DNA from: Pseudorhodobacter sp. PARRP1
Lineage (GTDB): Bacteria > Pseudomonadota > Alphaproteobacteria > Rhodobacterales > Rhodobacteraceae
Length of the DNA: 64,000 nucleotides
Direction: 5' to 3'
NCBI GenBank assembly: GCA_002256245.1
Contig: NKIU01000001.1
Coordinates: forward strand, 486,232 to 550,231
The notes beneath the pieces are model-generated. The model was not told the origin of the DNA. It saw only the letters and a list, made by a program, of their open reading frames with translations, and ran no database searches. Every line of letters starts with the position of its first letter. The stretch's first letter is position 1. A program made the translations under genes and the position numbers. Positions 50,437 to 60,104 of this stretch are shown in pieces.

Positions 50437-51597
50437 TCAGACCCTTTCCAGCGCCAGCGCGATGCCCTGCCCGCCACCGATACACATGGTGACAAGGGCT
50501 GTCTTGCCGCCTGCACGCTCTAACTCGGCCAATGCCTTGGCGACAAGAATTGCGCCGGTGGCCCCGACCGGATGGCCCAAGGCAATCGCGCCGCCGTTGG
50601 GGTTCACCTTTGCCGGGTCAAGGCCCAAGGCCCGACTGACGGCAAGCGCCTGCGCCGCGAACGCCTCGTTTGATTCGACGACATCGAAGCTGTCAGGCGT
50701 CACCCCAAGTTTGGCGCAGAGCGCCTGCACCGCCGGGATCGGCCCCAGACCCATCACTTTCGGATCAACTCCGGCCACCGCATAGCCCATGATGCGCGCC
50801 TTGGCGTTGCCCGGATTGCCGCGTGACAGGATCACCGCCGCCGCACCATCGTTGATGCCCGAGGCATTGCCGGCCGTCACCGTACCATCCTTGGCAAAGG
50901 CTGGGCGCAGGCCAGCGAGGGCCGCAAGTGTCGTGGCTTTCGGATGTTCATCCTGCGCAAAGATGGTGTGGCCCTTGCGGCCCGAAAGCTCAACCGGGGT
51001 GATCTGCGATGCAAAGCGCCCCTCGGCAATCGCTTGCGCGGCGCGGTTTTGCGACAGAAGTGCGAAGGCGTCCTGATCCGCGCGGGTGATGCCATATTGG
51101 GCGGCGACATTCTCGGCGGTGATGCCCATATGCCCGGTGCCAAACGGGCAGGTCAGCGCGCCAGTCATCATGTCGATGAGCTTGGTATCGCCCATCTTCT
51201 GGCCAAAACGCGCCGATTGCACGGCATAGGGCGCGCGGCTCATACACTCTGCCCCGCCCGCCAAGGCGATTTCGGCGTCGCCCAGCATCAGCATCTGCAT
51301 CGCCGAGACGATGGCCTGCGCGCCCGATCCACACAGGCGGTTGACGTTCATCGCCGGGGTGGTTTCCGGCACGCCCGCCTGCATCGCCGCCACCCGCGCA
51401 AGATACATGTCGCGCGGCTCGGTGTTGATGACATGGCCGAAAACCACAGTGCCAACCTGCGCCGGCTCAATGCCAGCCCGCTCAATCGCGGCCTTTGCGG
51501 CATGGGTGGCAATGTCAATCGGCGGCATTGCCGACAGCGCCCCGCCAAAGCCGCCGATGGCGGTGCGGGCGGTCGAGAGAATGTAAATATCGGACAT
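50437..51597 (-). CDS. Acetyl-CoA C-acyltransferase (beta-ketothiolase)
   Basis: 386-residue thiolase with nucleophile Cys in NVNRLCGSGAQ, GGAECMSRAPY, the catalytic His in ALGHPVGATG and Cys in TMCIGGGQG. It lies 9 bp after maiA in the marR-maiA-thiolase operon, so cleavage of acetoacetyl-CoA, derived from the acetoacetate released by fumarylacetoacetase, is the likely task. A CoA-transferase or synthetase to activate acetoacetate is not in the window. PHB or BktB-like thiolase identity is an alternative. Confidence 0.92.
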   Translation of the reverse strand: MSDIYILSTARTAIGGFGGALSAMPPIDIATHAAKAAIERAGIEPAQVGTVVFGHVINTEPRDMYLARVAAMQAGVPETTPAMNVNRLCGSGAQAIVSAMQMLMLGDAEIALAGGAECMSRAPYAVQSARFGQKMGDTKLIDMMTGALTCPFGTGHMGITAENVAAQYGITRADQDAFALLSQNRAAQAIAEGRFASQITPVELSGRKGHTIFAQDEHPKATTLAALAGLRPAFAKDGTVTAGNASGINDGAAAVILSRGNPGNAKARIMGYAVAGVDPKVMGLGPIPAVQALCAKLGVTPDSFDVVESNEAFAAQALAVSRALGLDPAKVNPNGGAIALGHPVGATGAILVAKALAELERAGGKTALVTMCIGGGQGIALALERV

Positions 51598-51606
51598 GGG
51601 CTGGCC

Positions 51607-52218
51607 TCAGGGTTTGACGCGATCCGGGTGGGCGGCGGCGATCGCGGGGATTTCGCGCAAGTTAGCCACAATCTGCATGGTTTTGGGCAACGACGTCACG
51701 TCAACGCCCACACGTTCTGCGTTGTAAATTTGCGGCACCAAGCACAGGTCAGCCATCGTCACCTGATCGCCGTGGCAGTAGCGCCCCGCGCCCGTCAACA
51801 TCGCCTCGAACGCGGTCAATCCTTTGGTGATGTAGTGGCGCGTCCACGCCTCGCTGGTCATTGCGCCCATCGTGCCCACATGATCGCGCACCGACAGATT
51901 GCAGATCGGGGCGATTTCCATTGCGATGGCGTAGGAAAGTGCGCGCACCTGCGCCCGCGGCTTTGGGTCTTTGGGCAGCAAGCCGCCACAGGTTTCGTCA
52001 AGATATTCGATGATCGCCAAGGATTGTGTCAGCCGCAGACCGTCGATTTCCAGCGTGGGCACAAGGCCTTGCGGGTTGCGCGCGACGTTGTCGGCCCCGC
52101 GCTGCTCGCCCTTCACCAGATCAACCGGGTGGCGATCGTAGGGCAGGTTCAACAGGTTCAGCGCCATGCGCACACGATACGCCGCAGACGAGCGCCAGTA
52201 ATCGTAAAGCCTGATCAT
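51607..52218 (-). CDS. maiA: Maleylacetoacetate isomerase
   Basis: A zeta-class glutathione transferase of 203 residues that isomerises maleylacetoacetate to fumarylacetoacetate. YDYWRSSAAYRVRMALNL gives the SSxxxRVR active-site motif, and QSLAIIEYLDE the glutathione-binding segment. The start overlaps the marR stop by 4 bp. It completes the pathway with hmgA and fahA on the opposite strand. Confidence 0.93.
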   Translation of the reverse strand: MIRLYDYWRSSAAYRVRMALNLLNLPYDRHPVDLVKGEQRGADNVARNPQGLVPTLEIDGLRLTQSLAIIEYLDETCGGLLPKDPKPRAQVRALSYAIAMEIAPICNLSVRDHVGTMGAMTSEAWTRHYITKGLTAFEAMLTGAGRYCHGDQVTMADLCLVPQIYNAERVGVDVTSLPKTMQIVANLREIPAIAAAHPDRVKP

Positions 52219-52640
52219 TTTTCCTCCAACAGTCGCAGCAATACGGTGCGAAACAGGGCGGCATCCGTGCCAATCTGGGCCAGCACCTGTGCCTGATACG
52301 CATCGGCAATCGGCACGATCCGGGCGATCAGATCGCGGCCCTTGGCGGTCAGCCGCATATCCAGCAGGCGGCGATCTTCGAGGTTTTCGCGCTTCTCGAT
52401 CAACCCCTGCGCCTCAAGCCGGGCGGCAGCGCGGCTGACCTTGGACTTGTCCATATCAACCTTGGCATGAATTTCGCGCACCGAAACCTGATCGGACTGC
52501 GCAAGATGCGCCAGCACGCGCCACTCGGGGATCGTCAGGCCAAATTCTGCCCGGTAAAGCTCGGAGAACCCTTTCGAGACGCGGCTGGCGGCGACCGCCA
52601 ACTGGTAAGGCAAGAAAGCGGAAAGATCGAAACGCGTCAT
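52215..52640 (-). CDS. MarR family transcriptional regulator
   Basis: A 141-residue winged-helix regulator: EWRVLAHLAQSDQVSVREIH is the recognition helix region, and SRAAARLEAQGLIEKRENLEDRR forms the wing. It is the first gene of the operon with maiA and thiolase, and divergent from an MFS gene. The likely target is the palindrome in the hmgA promoter at 53909-53928 (inference), with an aromatic intermediate such as homogentisate as inducer. Confidence 0.9.
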   Translation of the reverse strand: MTRFDLSAFLPYQLAVAASRVSKGFSELYRAEFGLTIPEWRVLAHLAQSDQVSVREIHAKVDMDKSKVSRAAARLEAQGLIEKRENLEDRRLLDMRLTAKGRDLIARIVPIADAYQAQVLAQIGTDAALFRTVLLRLLEEK

Positions 52641-52754
52641 CTGTGGCCCTCGTTTTTATGCAAGCCTGCCCGTTGGCCGCAGAATTCGCAAGCGGGGGCA
52701 GTTGACAGTGCGGTGGCCGCAAGGGACACCGGGTGCTGCAACCCGGAGAGTGAT

Positions 52755-53858
52755 GTGCGCGACCTGATCAAGTCTAACCTTGCGTTGCTGACGATCAGCA
52801 TTGCCAGCTTCATCCTGATGGGCGCCGGGACGGCACTTTATGGCCCTGCCCTGCCGGTGTTCGCGCGCAGCTTTGATATCCAGATCGGCACCGCTGGGCT
52901 GTTGATCTCGGCGCATTGGATCGGCTGTTCCATCGGTGTGGCAGCGATGTTTGCGGTAGGGCCGCGTGCCACGCCGCAATGGGTGGTTGCCCTGATGACG
53001 CTTGGCGTGGCGCTGATGGCGGTGGGCTTGAGCTGGGCGCTTACCCTGCTGGGTGCTGTGCTGTTTGGCGCGGGCTATGGCTGCGCCACGGTGGTTTTCA
53101 ACCCGCGCATGTTGCGGGCGTTTGGCGCGCGCGGGCCTGCGATGCTTAGCCTGCTGAACGCAACCTTCGGCATCGGCGCGATTGGCGCGCCGCTGGTGTT
53201 TGTGGCGCTTGGCAATGATCCGGTGCTGAGTTTTGCGATCTGCGCGGTGATCGGGGTGGCGATCACCGCCTGCGCAGGGCCTGCGGGCCGCACGGCAAAC
53301 GTGGCCGCAACCACATCCACCCTGCCCTTCAGGTTGCACATCCCGATGCTGGTGTTCGGCGCCGTTGCGATCAGTGTCGAGGCCTGCCTGACCGGGCTTG
53401 GCCCCACGGCGCTGATCAAGGCGGGGCTGTCGGAAACCGCGGCGGCGCAACTGCTGTCGGCGTTTTTCCTGGCTTTTCTGGCCGCGCGCCTTTGCCTGAT
53501 GGTGGTGGCCACCTGGCTTCCGGCGTTCACGCTGTTCACTTTGGCGCTGCTCGGGGCCTGTGCCTCGGCACTGATCGCGGGGCTTTGGTCGCCGGGCGCA
53601 GGGTTTGTCGCTTTGGGCTTTTTTGCGGGTATGTTCTTTCCGACCGAATATGTCACCGCCACGCGCAAGATGGGCGACAACCCCAAGGTTGCCCCCACGA
53701 TCATTGCCTCAGGTCTGGTCGGCGGCGTCTGTGCGCCGCTGATGATGTCGCCGTTTCTGGGCGCGATGGGGCCGCATGGCTTTTTTTGGGTGACGGCCTG
53801 CGTCACCGGCTTGCTTGGTTTGGCCGCATTGGCCAGCCTGCGGGCGATGAACCGCTAA
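52755..53858 (+). CDS. MFS transporter
   Basis: A 367-residue permease with about twelve helices, of the fucose/glucose permease-like branch (TALYGPALPVFARSFD, LISAHWIGCSIGVAAMF). The start is GTG at 52755, seven bases after GGAGAG; a longer frame upstream lacks support. It is divergent from marR and just before hmgA, so uptake of an aromatic acid or efflux of an intermediate is plausible, but not shown by sequence. Confidence 0.82.
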   Translation: MRDLIKSNLALLTISIASFILMGAGTALYGPALPVFARSFDIQIGTAGLLISAHWIGCSIGVAAMFAVGPRATPQWVVALMTLGVALMAVGLSWALTLLGAVLFGAGYGCATVVFNPRMLRAFGARGPAMLSLLNATFGIGAIGAPLVFVALGNDPVLSFAICAVIGVAITACAGPAGRTANVAATTSTLPFRLHIPMLVFGAVAISVEACLTGLGPTALIKAGLSETAAAQLLSAFFLAFLAARLCLMVVATWLPAFTLFTLALLGACASALIAGLWSPGAGFVALGFFAGMFFPTEYVTATRKMGDNPKVAPTIIASGLVGGVCAPLMMSPFLGAMGPHGFFWVTACVTGLLGLAALASLRAMNR

Positions 53859-53903
53859 CACCCCAAATTCTGACGCTGTTCGGCTGCGGCTGTGACAATC
53901 ATG

Positions 53904-53933
53904 TTGACATCGTTGCACTTGCAACGATATTTT
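53904..53933 (+). promoter_or_regulatory. hmgA promoter with embedded operator palindrome
   Basis: -35 TTGACA at 53904-53909 and a -10-like TATTTT at 53928-53933 are separated by 18 bp. The spacer plus flanks is a perfect dyad, ATCGTTGCA-CT-TGCAACGAT (53909-53928). A dimeric regulator binding there would block RNA polymerase. The MarR protein encoded at 52215-52640 is the nearest candidate. Confidence 0.75.
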
Positions 53934-53981
53934 CCAGACATACGTTTAACGCTGCCCCGAATCCTGCTGCACGAGGCTGAC

Positions 53982-55343
53982 ATGAATACGCAAAGCCTGC
54001 CCTCTGGCCTGCACCGCGCCGCCACAACCCTTGGCACCCACGCCCACTACATGCCCGGCTTCGGCAATGATTTTGAGACCGAGGCGCTGCCCGGTGCCCT
54101 GCCGCAGGGCATGAATTCACCACAGAAATGCAACTACGGGCTTTATGGCGAACAGCTTTCCGGCACGGCCTTTACCGCGCCCAGCCACCAGAACGAACGG
54201 ACATGGTGCTATCGCATCCGACCTTCGGTGAAGCACACGCATCGCTTTGAAAAGATTGATATTCCCTACTGGAAGTCAGCGCCGCATATCGACCCGGATG
54301 TGATCTCGCTGGGCCAATACCGCTGGGACCCGGTGCCGCACAGCGATGCCGCGCTGACCTGGATCACCGGGATGCGCACGATGACGACGGCGGGCGATGT
54401 AAATACCCAAGTCGGCATGGCAAGCCATATCTATCTGGTCACGCAATCCATGCAGGATGAGTATTTCTTCAGCGCCGACAGTGAGTTGCTGATCGTGCCG
54501 CAACAGGGCCGCCTGCGGTTCTGCACCGAACTCGGCATCATTGACCTAGAGCCGCAGGAAATCGCGGTGATGCCGCGTGGGCTGGTTTATCGGGTTGAAG
54601 TGTTGGAAGGCCCGGCGCGTGGCTTTGTCTGCGAGAATTACGGACAAAAGTTCACATTGCCGGGGCGCGGCCCGATCGGTGCCAATTGCATGGCCAATCC
54701 ACGCGACTTCAAAACTCCTGTCGCGGCATTTGAAGACCGCGAGGTGCCGTCCTCGGTGGTGGTGAAATGGTGCGGGCAGTTCCACCGCACCCGTATCGGC
54801 CACAGCCCGCTTGATGTGGTGGCGTGGCACGGCAATTACGCGCCGGTGAAATATGATCTGCGCACCTATTGCCCGGTTGGCGCGATCTTGTTCGATCATC
54901 CGGACCCGTCGATTTTTACGGTTCTGACCGCACCCTCCGGCGTGGAAGGCACCGCGAACATCGACTTCGTGCTGTTCCGCGAGCGTTGGATGGTGGCCGA
55001 AAACACCTTCCGCCCGCCGTGGTATCACAAGAACATCATGTCGGAACTGATGGGCAACATTTATGGCATTTACGATGCAAAGCCCAAAGGATTTGTGCCC
55101 GGCGGCATGAGCCTGCACAACATGATGTTGCCACATGGCCCCGACAAGCAGGCGTTTGAGGGGGCATCAAACGCTGTGCTGAAGGCGGAAAAGCTGGATG
55201 AAACCATGTCCTTCATGTTTGAAACCCGCTTTCCCCAGCATTTGACCGCCTTCGCCGCGAAAGAGGCGCCACTTCAGGACGACTACATTGATTGCTGGGA
55301 GAGTTTGGTGAAGAAGTTCGACGGCACGCCGGGGCTGAAATGA
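53982..55343 (+). CDS. hmgA: Homogentisate 1,2-dioxygenase
   Basis: Fe(II) ring-cleaving dioxygenase converting homogentisate to maleylacetoacetate. 453 residues, normal for the family. The N-terminal signature [19 protein letters not shown] is followed by [15 protein letters not shown]. The C-terminal cupin carries the Fe ligands around [14 protein letters not shown] and the [10 protein letters not shown] segment. The ATG at 53982 follows GAGG; the longer frame upstream covers the promoter. It is the first gene of the operon hmgA-fahA-MBL-monooxygenase-DUF2783. Confidence 0.97.
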
Positions 55344-55416
55344 TCCCCAATACCTCACAGCTCGCATTGACAGCGCCACAGGCTTGCGCCTCCCTCGGGC
55401 TTTTGGAGGATGCGCG

Positions 55417-56682
55417 ATGAAACTGCAGAAATCATGGGTCGAAAGTGCCAATTCCGCGACGACCGACTTTCCCTTGAATAACCTGCCGTGCGGGGTGTTC
55501 TCGGTCGGTGATGAGCCAGCCCGCTGCGGTGTGGCGATTGGCGATTTTGTGCTGGATCTTGGCGCGTTAGAGGCCGAAGGCCTGCTGACATTGGCCGACC
55601 ACCCGCTGTTTGATGTGCCGTTCTGGAACGAATTCATGGAGGCTGGCCCAACCGTCTGGGCAGAGTATCGCAGCCAGATCACCGCGATGCTGGCGGAAGG
55701 GGCCAGCAAGCGCTGGATCATCGAAGATCACCTGGTGCCGCGCGACAAAGTAACCCTGCATCTGCCGTTTGTTGTGGCCGAATACACCGATTTCTATGCC
55801 GGTCGGCATCACGCCACCAATGTCGGCACCATGTTTCGCGGCGCAGAAAACGCGTTGCCCCCAAACTGGCTCCATATGCCGATCGGCTATAACGGCCGCG
55901 CCTCGTCCGTGGTGGTTTCGGGCACCGAAATCCGCCGCCCATGGGGCCAGTTGAAGGGCCCCGAGTTTGATCACCCTATCTTTGCGCCATCCCGGCGCTT
56001 CGATATCGAGCTGGAACTCGGCGCGGTTGTGGGGCAAGCCTCCACTCACGGCCAACCGGTGACGGTCGCCGAAGCTGATGCAATGATCTTTGGCTATGTG
56101 TTGCTAAATGATTGGTCTGCCAGAGATATTCAGGCATGGGAGTATCAACCCCTCGGCCCGTTTCAGGCGAAGGCGACGGCCACCAGCATTGGCGGATGGA
56201 TCGTGATGAAAGCGGCTCTGCAGCCGTTCCGCATCGCGACCCCACCGCGCGAAGCGCCACTTTTGCCGCATTTGGTAGAACCGGAACCGATGCTTTACAA
56301 TGTGGCGCTTGAGGTTGGATTGAAACCGAACGATGGTTCGGAAACCGTGATCAGCCGCACCAACTACGCGGAAATGTATTACTCGGCAGCGCAGCAACTG
56401 GCACACCACACAACCTCGGGCTGTGCGATGAACATCGGTGATTTGCTGGGGTCGGGCACAATCTCGGGTGCTGCCAAAGAAAGCCGGGGCAGCCTGCTGG
56501 AGTTGTCCTGGGGCGGCAAAGAGCCGTTTGCGATTGCCGGTGGCAGCCGCAGTTTCATCGAGGACAACGACACCCTGACGCTGCGCGGAGCGGCCTTGGG
56601 CAACGGATATCGGATCGGGTTTGGTGCGTGTTCGGGCAAGGTCATCCCCGCCCTCGCAGACCCTTATGCAAGGAAAAACTGA
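55417..56682 (+). CDS. fahA: Fumarylacetoacetase
   Basis: Hydrolyses fumarylacetoacetate to fumarate and acetoacetate, ending the homogentisate pathway. 421 residues. It has an N-terminal SH3-like domain (to about 115), then the catalytic domain with YTDFYAGRHHATNVG (metal and catalytic His), RFDIELELGAVVG, LLNDWSARDIQAWEYQPLGPF and SGTISG. GGAGG seven bases before the ATG at 55417 fixes the start, 73 bp after hmgA. The downstream gene begins right after its stop. Confidence 0.96.
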   Translation: MKLQKSWVESANSATTDFPLNNLPCGVFSVGDEPARCGVAIGDFVLDLGALEAEGLLTLADHPLFDVPFWNEFMEAGPTVWAEYRSQITAMLAEGASKRWIIEDHLVPRDKVTLHLPFVVAEYTDFYAGRHHATNVGTMFRGAENALPPNWLHMPIGYNGRASSVVVSGTEIRRPWGQLKGPEFDHPIFAPSRRFDIELELGAVVGQASTHGQPVTVAEADAMIFGYVLLNDWSARDIQAWEYQPLGPFQAKATATSIGGWIVMKAALQPFRIATPPREAPLLPHLVEPEPMLYNVALEVGLKPNDGSETVISRTNYAEMYYSAAQQLAHHTTSGCAMNIGDLLGSGTISGAAKESRGSLLELSWGGKEPFAIAGGSRSFIEDNDTLTLRGAALGNGYRIGFGACSGKVIPALADPYARKN

Positions 56683-57633
56683 ATGAGCAAGGCGTTCGCA
56701 TCGCAGGCGGATCTGACAGAAAAGCGCACCTCTTTCGTCGAAATCGGCGATGGCATCTACGCATTCACCGCCGAGGGCGACCCGAATTCGGGCGTGATCA
56801 TCGGCGACAATTCGGTGATGGTGATCGAAGCCCAAGCCACGCCGCGACTTGCGCGCAAAGTGGTCGAATGTATCCGCACGGTCACCGACAAGCCGATCAG
56901 CCATCTGGTGCTGACGCATTATCACGCTGTGCGGGTGCTTGGCGCAAGTGCTTACGGCGCAAGGGAAATCATCATGTCTGATGCCGCGCGCGGCATGGTG
57001 ATGGAGCGTGGGCAAGAAGATTGGGACAGCGAATTTGGCCGCTTTCCCCGCCTGTTTCATGGACACGAAGAGATCCCCGGCCTGACGCTGCCCACCACCA
57101 CGTTCAGCGATCAGATGACGGTGTATCTTGGCAATCGCCGGGTGGACATCATGCATCTGGGGCGCGCACATACCGCAGGTGACGCCGTGGTTTGGGTTCC
57201 GGATTCCGAAGTGATGTTCACCGGCGATATCGTGGAGTATCACTCCGCATGTTACTGCGGCGATGGCCATTTCGCCGATTGGACCGACACTTTGGCGAAC
57301 ATCGCAGCGTTTGATCCGGTGGCGATTGCGCCCGGGCGCGGCGATGCGCTGGTTGGCCGCGACATGGTTAGCAAAGCCATCGCATCGACGGCCGATTTCG
57401 TGCAAAGCACCTATCGTCCGGCGGCAAAGGTGGCCGCACGCGGCGGCAGCTTGAAAGAGGCTTGGAACGCGGTGCGTGCCGAATGTGACGCTAAGTTCGG
57501 TAATTTTGCGATCTACGAGCATTGCCTGCCTTTCAACGTTGTCCGTGCATATGACGAAGCACGCGGCATCGAAAACCCGCGCGTCTGGACTGCCGAGCGA
57601 GACCGTGAAATGTGGGCGGCGCTGCAGGGATGA
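56683..57633 (+). CDS. MBL-fold protein with incomplete metal-binding motif
   Basis: A 316-residue metallo-beta-lactamase-fold protein, beginning directly after the fahA stop. The first metal motif, normally HxHxDH, reads His79-Tyr80-His81-Ala82-Val83-Arg84: the Asp and second His of the motif are missing. Later ligands are present (His in GRAHTAGD, Asp in FTGDIV). It may bind one metal or act non-hydrolytically. Its position among homogentisate genes suggests a lactone- or thioester-hydrolysing, detoxifying or accessory role in this pathway, but no reaction can be assigned. Confidence 0.85.
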   Translation: MSKAFASQADLTEKRTSFVEIGDGIYAFTAEGDPNSGVIIGDNSVMVIEAQATPRLARKVVECIRTVTDKPISHLVLTHYHAVRVLGASAYGAREIIMSDAARGMVMERGQEDWDSEFGRFPRLFHGHEEIPGLTLPTTTFSDQMTVYLGNRRVDIMHLGRAHTAGDAVVWVPDSEVMFTGDIVEYHSACYCGDGHFADWTDTLANIAAFDPVAIAPGRGDALVGRDMVSKAIASTADFVQSTYRPAAKVAARGGSLKEAWNAVRAECDAKFGNFAIYEHCLPFNVVRAYDEARGIENPRVWTAERDREMWAALQG

Positions 57634-57637
57634 TGCA

Positions 57638-59182
57638 ATGAGCTATGCCTATCAACCCTTTGATTATGTTGCCCCACTCGGCCTTTCATCGCCAGAGGCG
57701 CGCCACAAGGTGATCATTGTCGGCGCGGGCCCGATCGGGTTGGCGATGGCGGTTGAACTGGCCAACCACGGTGTGCACGCCACGGTGCTGGACGACAATA
57801 ATGTGGTCTCGGTAGGGTCGCGCGCGATTTGCTGGAGCAAACGCTCTCTGGAAATCCTGGATCGTCTTGGCATAGCTGAACGCTGCGTCACAAAAGGCGT
57901 CACTTGGAAAGTGGGCCGCACTTTTCACCGAGACAGGGAAGTGTTCTGCTTTGATCTGTTGCCCGAAGACGGCCACAAGATGCCTGCTTTCGTGAACCTG
58001 CAGCAATACTTTGTCGAAGAATTTCTGGTGCAGCGCGCGCAGGAACTTGGCGTTGATCTGCGCTGGAAAAACCGGGTGACGGCAATTGAGCAACACAGCG
58101 ACTTCGCAACGCTCACCGTTGAAACCCCTGACGGCAGCTATCAGTTAGAGGCCGATTGGGTGATTGCCTGCGACGGTGCGCGCAGCCCGATCCGCGAGAT
58201 GATGCGGCTGGAGTTTGAGGGTGAGTTGTTTGAAGAGCGATTTCTAATCGCCGACATCGAAATGCAGTCCGATTTCGCAAGCGAGCGTTGGTTCTGGTTC
58301 GAGCCCAACTTTCATGGCGGCCAGTCGGCTTTGTTGCACAAACAGCCCGACAACATTTACCGCATCGACCTTCAGCTTGGCTGGGATACCGACCCCGAAG
58401 TTGAAAAGCGCCCCGAAAATGTCATCCCGCGCATCGAGAAAGTTGTTGGCCATAGCGATTTCAAACTGGATTGGGTCAGCATCTACACCTTCCAGTGCCG
58501 ACGTTTACGAAGCTTTGTTCACAATCGCATCCTGTTTGTGGGCGATAGTGCGCATATCGTCTCGCCATTTGGCGCGCGTGGCGGCAATGGCGGTTTGGGC
58601 GACGTGGATGCGCTGGGATGGCGCTTGGCTGCGGTGGTGAATGGCGCGGCTGAAGCGGCCATTCTGCAGGGCTACGATCGGGAACGTTGCTTCGGTGCCG
58701 ATGAAAATTTGCTCAACTCCAGCCGTTCGACCCGCTTCATGTCTCCCGAATCCGGCGTGGAGCGCCTGTTCCGTGACGCCGTTTTGCATCTGGCCGCCCA
58801 TGCTGATTTCGCCCGCCCGATGGTGAATTCTGGTCGTCTGTCGCGCCCTTGCGTCTATCCGTTGCAGGCTCCCGATGCGGCGCTGCCGACAGCCGCGCGA
58901 CCCGGAGCCGTTGCTCCAGATGCCCCATTGGACGGCGGCTGGATGACCGAAGCCTTGGGGCGTGATTTCATGGTTCTGGCTTTGGGATGTGACGCGCCGC
59001 ACACCAATTTGCTGACGCTGAAGCCAAAACTGAATGACACTTTGCGACGCCGCTATCTGGGGGATCAGCCGCAGGCGGTCTATCTGATCCGGCCCGATCA
59101 AGTGGTGGCTGCGCGGTGGTTGTCAGCCACATCACGCGACATCGAGGAAGCCTTGGCGCAAAGCTGGAGCGGGCTAGTATGA
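57638..59182 (+). CDS. FAD-dependent aromatic hydroxylase, MhaA-like
   Basis: Group A flavoprotein monooxygenase of 514 residues. GxGxxG motif VGAGPIGLAMAVELANHG near 31-48; ACDGARSPIR (DG motif); and FVGDSAHIVSPFGARGGNGGLGD (GD motif and FAD contact). A thioredoxin-like C-terminal part follows. Together with the 63-residue DUF2783 protein coupled to it, it matches the architecture of 3-hydroxyphenylacetate 6-hydroxylase MhaA with coupling protein MhaB of Pseudomonas putida, which makes homogentisate. Substrate is inferred from context; phenylacetate- or benzoate-type phenols are alternatives. The ATG at 57638 is four bases after the MBL gene's stop. Confidence 0.85.
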   Translation: MSYAYQPFDYVAPLGLSSPEARHKVIIVGAGPIGLAMAVELANHGVHATVLDDNNVVSVGSRAICWSKRSLEILDRLGIAERCVTKGVTWKVGRTFHRDREVFCFDLLPEDGHKMPAFVNLQQYFVEEFLVQRAQELGVDLRWKNRVTAIEQHSDFATLTVETPDGSYQLEADWVIACDGARSPIREMMRLEFEGELFEERFLIADIEMQSDFASERWFWFEPNFHGGQSALLHKQPDNIYRIDLQLGWDTDPEVEKRPENVIPRIEKVVGHSDFKLDWVSIYTFQCRRLRSFVHNRILFVGDSAHIVSPFGARGGNGGLGDVDALGWRLAAVVNGAAEAAILQGYDRERCFGADENLLNSSRSTRFMSPESGVERLFRDAVLHLAAHADFARPMVNSGRLSRPCVYPLQAPDAALPTAARPGAVAPDAPLDGGWMTEALGRDFMVLALGCDAPHTNLLTLKPKLNDTLRRRYLGDQPQAVYLIRPDQVVAARWLSATSRDIEEALAQSWSGLV

Positions 59183-59370
59183 TATTGAAATCACACGCGA
59201 ATATTGTTGATGCCGATGGATTTTACGCCGATCTGCTGGCCGCGCATCGCGGCTTGAGCGAAGCTGAAAGCCACGCATTGAACGCGCGGTTGGTATTGGT
59301 CTTGGCCAATCACATCGGCGATGCAGGGGTATTGGCGCAGGCTCTGACTTTGGCACGAGAAGGTAGTTAA
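59179..59370 (+). CDS. DUF2783 small protein, likely hydroxylase coupling partner (MhaB-like)
   Basis: A 63-residue, mostly helical protein (ANIVDADGFYADLLAAHRGL, ESHALNARLVLVLANHIGD). Its ATG overlaps the stop of the FAD hydroxylase (ATGA), as expected for a subunit made in stoichiometric amounts. Size and position match the roughly 6-kDa coupling protein of the MhaAB hydroxylase. Its TAA stop nests with that of the convergent phosphoesterase gene in the shared TTAA at 59367-59370. Confidence 0.85.
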   Translation: MILKSHANIVDADGFYADLLAAHRGLSEAESHALNARLVLVLANHIGDAGVLAQALTLAREGS

Positions 59371-60104
59371 TCTTTAGCAGGCAACAGAGGTTCGCGCCAT
59401 GGCCCGAGCAGTCGGAAAACTTCACGGCCTTCAAGGACCACGGCGCTCAGCGGGCCCCCATAAGCAGCGCTCGAGTCGATATTGACCCGGTTGCCGTAAT
59501 GCGTGGGCAGGTCGAGCGCGGTGTGGCCATGAACGATCAGCGCCCCATGATCCGAGGTGTCTTCAAGCCAGCCTTTGCGAATCCAGACCAGATCATCCTC
59601 GGTCTGGCTGCCGATGATCACGCCGGGGCGGATGCCTGCGTGGACATAGATCACCTCGCCGCGCTGGAAGTAACTGGGACGCGCGTTCAGAAAGTCGAGA
59701 TGTGATTGCGGCACAGCAGCAACTGCTTCAGCATGCACCGCCGCCAATGGACGGTCGGCGGCATTTTTCACGCCGTAGGAAGCCAATGTGGCTGCGCCGC
59801 CGATCTTTGGGTGCAGGTAGGACAGGTCGGTGCGCAGGCAAGGATCGTGGTAATCAAAGTCAGCGATATAGTTTGTGAACATCCGGTCATGATTGCCTTT
59901 CAGCACGACCCAGTCCTTGCCCGCAGCGATGCCTGCGCGCAGATATTCGACCACGCCGCGACAATCGGGGCCGCGGTCCACCAGATCGCCGACATGCACA
60001 ACCGGCGCTGCCCCATGTTTGGCCTGATCGGCGTCGATCCATGCGTGGACTTCGCGAAGCAGTTCGATATGGCCGTGGATATCGCCGATGGCATAGGTTC
60101 TCAT
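59367..60104 (-). CDS. Metallophosphoesterase (serine/threonine phosphatase-like)
   Basis: A 245-residue calcineurin-like phosphoesterase with the full metal set: GDIHG at residues 7-11, GDLVDRGPD near 43-51, GNHDRM near 73-78, and later His in VHAGIRPG and IVHGHTALD. It resembles bacterial PrpA/PrpB-type protein phosphatases and ApaH relatives; Ser/Thr phosphoprotein or dinucleotide substrates are both possible. It is last before the convergent catabolic operon. A hairpin repeat separates it from serA upstream. Confidence 0.88.
   Translation of the reverse strand: MRTYAIGDIHGHIELLREVHAWIDADQAKHGAAPVVHVGDLVDRGPDCRGVVEYLRAGIAAGKDWVVLKGNHDRMFTNYIADFDYHDPCLRTDLSYLHPKIGGAATLASYGVKNAADRPLAAVHAEAVAAVPQSHLDFLNARPSYFQRGEVIYVHAGIRPGVIIGSQTEDDLVWIRKGWLEDTSDHGALIVHGHTALDLPTHYGNRVNIDSSAAYGGPLSAVVLEGREVFRLLGPWREPLLPAKD

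Follow-up and report, generated by a model that had tools for sequence, protein, structure and literature searches.

Positions 50437–59370 of a 64,000-nucleotide stretch of Pseudorhodobacter sp. PARRP1 DNA (the window) hold a homogentisate island in which the gene for a 514-amino-acid (aa) flavin adenine dinucleotide (FAD) aromatic hydroxylase is followed directly by one for a 63-aa DUF2783 protein. Comparison of this island with its relatives inclines us to read the two products as a two-protein hydroxylase of the MhaAB kind that makes homogentisate from 3-hydroxyphenylacetate (3-HPA), with DUF2783 as its coupling protein and a MarR regulator in control. The nine genes are the following:

50437–51597, minus strand: thiolase of the BktB/acetoacetyl-CoA type (NF006552, 611.7 bits, cut-off 565)
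51607–52218, minus strand: maiA, maleylacetoacetate isomerase (TIGR01262, 241.2 bits, cut-off 171.05)
52215–52640, minus strand: MarR family regulator (PF12802, 57.5 bits, cut-off 27)
about 52755–53858, plus strand: major facilitator superfamily (MFS) transporter (PF07690, 29.6 bits, below the cut-off of 33.4 in a scan started at 52770)
53982–55343, plus strand: hmgA, homogentisate 1,2-dioxygenase (TIGR01015, 650.7 bits, cut-off 510.75)
55417–56682, plus strand: fahA, fumarylacetoacetase (TIGR01266, 469.8 bits, cut-off 375.3)
56683–57633, plus strand: metallo-beta-lactamase (MBL)-fold protein of the HYHAVR type (PF00753, 38 bits, cut-off 22.7)
57638–59182, plus strand: FAD aromatic hydroxylase of the group A type, MhaA-like, 514 aa (PF01494, 205.6 bits; NF006002/PRK08132, 720 bits, cut-off 416)
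59179–59370, plus strand: DUF2783 protein, MhaB-like, 63 aa (PF10932, 92.5 bits, cut-off 25, positions 1–59 of 59)

With hmgA, fahA and maiA all scoring above curated cut-offs, the island belongs to the homogentisate pathway, and the nine genes lie in the order and on the strands that a first-pass annotation had given them. The hydroxylase stop and the DUF2783 start overlap by ATGA (59179–59182). At its other end the DUF2783 gene is overlapped by 4 bases by a metallophosphoesterase gene on the opposite strand (59367–60104).

In the proposed pathway, the flavoprotein would para-hydroxylate a hydroxyphenylacetate, most likely 3-HPA at C6, to homogentisate, whose ring HmgA would open; MaiA would then isomerise the product and FahA would release fumarate and acetoacetate, the thiolase completing the acetoacetyl-CoA step. 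DUF2783, with no redox role of its own, would bind the flavoprotein and most likely tie the reduction of flavin and the use of oxygen to hydroxylation, a function reported for MhaB. The MarR protein is predicted to repress at a single palindrome before hmgA, and tyrosine-derived homogentisate would drain through the island's hmgA as well, the gene for 4-hydroxyphenylpyruvate dioxygenase (hpd) lying elsewhere and without the operator.

The partnership of the two proteins was assessed at genome scale by searching one set of 292 genomes of the order for DUF2783, hpd (E≤1e-60), hmgA and the FAD orthologue (E≤1e-80), and the co-occurrence counts were built from genome lists copied by hand from these four marker searches. 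They returned DUF2783 in 192 genomes, hpd in 201 (195 above cut-off), hmgA in 220 and the FAD orthologue in 190. Every genome with the FAD orthologue carries DUF2783 (190/190), and the orthologue is present in 190 of the 192 DUF2783-positive genomes, G030 and G040 being the two without a match at that threshold. Gene neighbourhoods were compared in a set of 133 loci, made up of 111 stretches around DUF2783 matches (69 within the order, roughly one for each genus in the matches listed, and 42 outside it), 15 loci of the FAD protein and seven plasmid loci, and searched with an iterated profile; two of these loci, L012 and L178, are one record. For 131 of the 133 DUF2783 domains, the FAD open reading frame (ORF) ends at most 400 bases upstream on the same strand or shares the ORF; the two others are in L187, next to a FAD remnant, and in L192, an exception taken up below. 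Stop-to-start gaps do not exceed 30 bases in 119 of 127 unfused pairs, and an exact 4-base overlap occurs in 31, with start codons chosen by rule.

Four ORFs contain both the hydroxylase and the DUF2783 domain. That of L103 (736 codons) joins them by a proline-rich linker with no methionine within, whereas that of L181 (604 codons) has an internal methionine that leaves a separate start possible; the other two, of 651 codons in L120 and of 333 codons, cut by the contig end, in L121, come from one genus, so that three lineages are represented in all. Such naturally fused genes argue strongly that the two proteins work together where they are separate, although an assembly or sequencing error may produce the same picture. 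Long stop-to-stop frames were tried as fusion evidence and rejected, since beyond these four ORFs the frames stand open by chance, and single-linkage clustering of neighbour genes proved too coarse for use. Also set aside were a second DUF2783 in L187 that adjoins a short C-terminal FAD remnant, and a match in G765 below cut-off and antisense to another ORF. The FAD gene is split into more than one frame in L016 and in the Peteryoungia plasmid L075.

The survey of DUF2783 beside FAD hydroxylases that the first-pass annotation had proposed thus came out on the side of partnership, by co-occurrence, adjacency and fusion alike, and DUF2783 almost certainly accompanies the hydroxylase as a near-obligate partner, probably in a helper role. 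Pairing and fusion are evidence of partnership rather than of mechanism, and would equally be predicted if DUF2783 served the folding, stability or dimer contacts of the hydroxylase, a role that we regard as possible but doubtful. What tips the comparison towards coupling is solely the published description of MhaB as a coupling protein (PMC3053370, in excerpt); by this analogy coupling is the more probable function.

The hydroxylase itself belongs to the group A flavin monooxygenases, for which GxGxxG, DG and GD are the motif names and in which NAD(P)H reduction of an aromatic hydroxylase takes place within its single polypeptide. Besides the PF01494 domain, it has G29/G31/G34 (GxGxxG), D179–G180 (DG) and G302–D303 (GD), all invariant in 15 aligned rows, and flavin oxygenases and hydroxylases are the closest chains of solved structure. 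PMC10696468 (in excerpt) presents group A enzymes as single-component; the window's flavoprotein shares PF01494 with them but differs by its small partner gene, present in all 190 genomes of the order that encode it. Group D hydroxylases, on the other hand, rely on a separate flavin reductase. The 63-aa partner matches DUF2783 alone, and no flavin reductase was matched among the ten scanned proteins, to which this search was confined. In two reviews, both in excerpt, 3-HPA 6-hydroxylase is tabulated under Group D (2018; PMC6165268, Table 1) and named beside HPAH-type hydroxylases (2023; PMC10696468). The window pair resembles the HpaBC type of Group D in having two genes, but its large protein is of PF01494 and its partner of no reductase family, and the Group D label would therefore not fit it.

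The nearest tested system is the 3-HPA 6-hydroxylase of Pseudomonas putida U, for which PMC3053370 cites Arias-Barrau 2005. In the excerpt of PMC3053370, it consists of the flavoprotein MhaA (566 aa) and the coupling protein MhaB (60 aa), is called highly specific for 3-HPA, and has homologues in Paraburkholderia xenovorans LB400 (47% and 35%, respectively). In LB400, mhaA-mhaB-hmgA1 (Bxe_A2727-2726-2725) adjoin the hmg genes (PMC3053370 and PMC10983741, both in excerpt); MhaA (Bxe_A2727) is listed there as up on 3-HPA and on 4-hydroxyphenylacetate (4-HPA) without statistical significance, and MhaB as not detected (PMC10983741, in excerpt). The window has the same layout, a flavoprotein and a partner of about 60 aa side by side near hmg genes, and the MhaA/MhaB design recognised in the first-pass annotation holds against these descriptions of P. 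putida U and LB400 (PMC3053370, in excerpt). This likeness is one to published descriptions rather than to sequences, and the window differs by its 514-aa hydroxylase, by the MBL-fold gene before it, and by the presence of a MarR gene and a palindrome. A bridge is offered by locus L087, in which the order FAD-DUF2783-HmgA-FahA is that of LB400 and the small protein reaches 95.4 bits with PF10932. Its FAD protein, 48% identical to that of the window, shares with it a fork of 125 rows supported by a Shimodaira–Hasegawa-like approximate likelihood-ratio test (SH-aLRT) value of 92 in a quick tree with midpoint root. Seven compared FAD proteins of this fork are 47–70% identical, and eight outside it are at most 49%, mostly below 42%, identical to them; the 47% published for LB400 MhaA fits the fork without proving membership.

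Whether homogentisate arises here from tyrosine turns on hpd, which is absent from the window, as the first-pass annotation had stated, but not from the genome. This assembly (4.35 Mb in 28 contigs, rated 100% complete) has its sole hpd match on contig 7, outside the window (G000:C7:364578–365585; 362.6 bits, cut-off 277). Beside it, on the opposite strand, lies an ORF that we take, from our own reading rather than a family scan, to encode an Lrp/AsnC-like regulator. No hmgA other than that of the window was found in the genome, so that any tyrosine-derived homogentisate broken down along this pathway has to go through the island. The absence of hpd was accordingly discarded as an argument against a tyrosine origin, and the suggestion that homogentisate may not come from tyrosine in this organism was not borne out, while the MhaAB-like design and the DUF2783 partnership proposed along with it stood.

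Given hpd in this genome and in 193 of the 220 hmgA-positive genomes of the order, the island could serve the tyrosine/phenylalanine route alone, with the FAD/DUF2783 pair as a passenger acting on an unrelated substrate; some pairs do lie in non-hmg clusters with a VOC gene. We nevertheless consider this quite unlikely, because the pair is kept in 24 of the 27 hmgA-positive genomes without hpd, hmgA is present in 189 of the 192 DUF2783-positive genomes, and the 4-kb hpd locus of the window's genome (L002) has no site for the island's putative operator. DUF2783 is found in 189 of 220 genomes with hmgA versus three of 72 without it. The 24 hpd-less carriers span 22 genera by genome labels, and when hpd is counted only above cut-off the figure becomes 26 of 29. 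A looser hpd search (E≤1e-5) of the 27 genomes gave none above cut-off in any of them, with no hpd-like match in 22 and a sub-cut-off match of 169–197 bits in five. The latter sit in open frames of 631–708 codons, presumably of the bifunctional dehydroshikimate dehydratase type. Retention of DUF2783 in these hpd-less genomes is what is expected if the hydroxylase pair supplies homogentisate, which is very probably its product. We read the pair as an apparent second route into homogentisate, present without hpd in about one in nine hmgA-positive genomes.

As to what is hydroxylated, precedent, the sole guide here, makes 3-HPA the probable substrate; a literature search linking this compound with Rhodobacteraceae found no paper. 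Homogentisate could also be formed from 2-hydroxyphenylacetate, a leak product of the phenylacetyl-CoA pathway, by para-hydroxylation at C5, in which case the MBL-fold protein might release it from a CoA thioester. Consistent with this, paa genes lie near the pair in three of 130 loci, Dinoroseobacter shibae (D. shibae) among them, and paaA was matched in 18 of 24 hpd-less genomes with the FAD orthologue versus three of 27 without it, a comparison whose second set is a non-random choice of 27 among 102 genomes and whose first set comprises hpd-less genomes only. However, paa linkage is rare, paaA was not matched in the window's own genome, and the high specificity for 3-HPA reported for MhaAB, the nearest tested system (PMC3053370, in excerpt), likewise renders this substrate unlikely. 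Very improbable is 4-HPA, which would have to undergo 1-hydroxylation and a side-chain shift to give homogentisate: the excerpted LB400 paper advances the hypothesis of MhaAB action on 4-HPA, with more reactive oxygen, but also states that P. putida MhaAB does not recognise it (PMC10983741). The present sequence evidence does not itself separate these substrates.

The MBL-fold gene ranks third in conservation (113 of 130 loci) and is found no more than 600 bases from the FAD ORF in 109 of 132 DUF2783-linked rows, the window included. Dinuclear hydrolases of this fold carry an HxHxDH motif and the histidine of PGHG. Neither is found in the window protein: compared with BcII (A-D-H, PGHG), the second-metal Asp and His are replaced by Val and Arg, and the PGHG histidine by arginine (PGRG). 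HYHAVR is invariant in all 116 aligned rows, and arginine 219 in all 115 rows with a letter; His79 and His81 are kept in 116 rows, and His163 and Asp182 in 115. This pattern suggests that the protein likely binds one metal. Its solved relative, chain 8d2z (369.7 bits), is named as a superfamily protein, and literature searches found no relevant paper for this PDB entry and none on a homogentisate cluster with an MBL gene. An MBL gene of the HYHAVR/PGRG type also stands beside the FAD gene in Rhodococcus pNit.

Several observations weigh against the interpretation that we favour. The MBL gene beside FAD in 109 of 132 rows goes unmentioned in the MhaAB excerpts, and the window enzyme may therefore differ from it in substrate. 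Within hmgA-positive genomes, DUF2783 is not significantly more frequent without hpd (24/27) than with it (165/193; Fisher p 0.78, a figure that ignores kinship), and 36 of 130 loci lack hmgA in the fetched flank, some flanks being short. The pairing itself has its exceptions: a DUF2783-like domain in L192 (8974–9240) has no FAD ORF before it, the same genome (G564) having a normal pair elsewhere, and L013 carries the hydroxylase (62% identical FAD protein) and hmg genes but seems to lack DUF2783, with no small ORF seen (about 10537 onwards). Finally, in the order of G341, presumably the one that includes Halomonas and Pseudomonas, DUF2783 rises above cut-off in only nine of 293 genomes, none of them shown to be Pseudomonas. 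The FAD ORF stands directly upstream in the short loci of seven of these nine genomes; the other two, G341 and G375, were already in the main set.

Related pairs also occur in other surroundings. Bradyrhizobium diazoefficiens bll2330-bll2329-bsl2328 includes a FAD oxidoreductase gene followed by a DUF2783 gene, as in the window, but differs by a VOC gene in front, and is listed with negative values in an nnrR mutant table (PMC6710368, in excerpt). In 25 of 130 loci the pair has a VOC-family gene nearby, namely in 13 of the 36 whose flank lacks hmgA and 12 of the 94 whose flank has it; such genes, e.g., L077 6291–6842 and L195 9806–10363, may mark a variant route.

The island also has a putative operator of its own:

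53909–53928: perfect palindrome ATCGTTGCA-CT-TGCAACGAT, candidate MarR operator, 53 bases before the hmgA start codon

The palindrome is matched once in the window, against 0.05 matches expected (≤3 mismatches), and its 18-base core is the sole site in the genome at ≤2 mismatches, a reversed control giving none. At ≤3 mismatches the core recurs upstream of hmgA in 34 of 95 other loci versus none of the 95 sequences shuffled once each (33 of 94 with the doubled record counted once), and is absent from the remaining 61 of 95 regions. The hpd locus, 4 kb long, has no site at ≤4 mismatches. A single site in the genome and none at hpd make the island seem a one-operator regulon, apart from hpd. MarR-like ORFs accompany 85 of 130 relative loci, and the MarR protein is likely a repressor of the island, with the palindrome as its candidate binding site.

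Of the remaining neighbours, the MFS transporter, with ORFs 54–84% identical in L003, L004, L006 and L011, probably takes up the aromatic substrate, and the thiolase is a plausible final step after fumarylacetoacetate hydrolysis. Two named relatives have the same cluster with an acetoacetate-CoA ligase gene in one and CoA transferase genes in the other.

Beyond the Pfam cut-off, 15 plasmid records encode FAD proteins 34–40% identical to that of the window, and nine were examined. A small gene adjoins the distant FAD gene in eight of these nine: annotated DUF2783 in the Variovorax and Bosea records, hypothetical proteins of 59–75 aa in Leisingera, Agrobacterium, Acinetobacter and Diaphorobacter, and unannotated ORFs, called by eye, in the Rhizobium and Comamonadaceae records. 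For the MBL-FAD pair of Rhodococcus pNit, no small gene was annotated or seen in three frames. Pfam gave the divergent small proteins at most 17.9 bits (cut-off 25) or no match, whereas an iterated profile matched the four hypothetical ones at 1.3e-8 to 1.6e-12 (seven-sequence set, filters off), the Leisingera protein having helped to build that profile and the other three not. In L017, from Achromobacter, whose FAD protein is 36–40% identical, DUF2783 was not matched (among the loci anchored on FAD this holds for L013 and L017 only) and a 73-aa ORF overlapping the FAD end scores weakly. The DUF2783-like small proteins behind distant FAD genes that are not so annotated lie as follows:

L080, 8506–8685: DUF2783-like small protein
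L215, 6614–6808: DUF2783-like small protein
L216, 4674–4859: DUF2783-like small protein
L217, 4665–4892: DUF2783-like small protein
L017, from 10620: DUF2783-like small protein

A Paraburkholderia sprentiae plasmid match was tried as the named Burkholderia/Pseudomonas copy and rejected; it covered half of the query, and the annotation there shows neither DUF2783 nor an hmg gene. On these data the chances seem to us evenly balanced that DUF2783 and a divergent, unannotated sister group together supply an entire branch of group A hydroxylases with its small subunit, a branch to which the homogentisate branch adds a rewired MBL-fold protein (HYHAVR...PGRG). If true, group A hydroxylases equipped with their own coupling subunit would constitute a separate architecture, one that a review has filed under Group D; MhaAB-type enzymes would then not be counted as reductase-dependent Group D, provided that MhaA is what L087 suggests.

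Collectively, genome-scale pairing and natural fusions turn DUF2783, a family so far without an assigned function, into a testable subunit. For genomes without hpd, the pairing points to another widespread origin of homogentisate, and a removable protein of 63 aa suggests a way to study how group A enzymes avoid the waste of NADH as peroxide.

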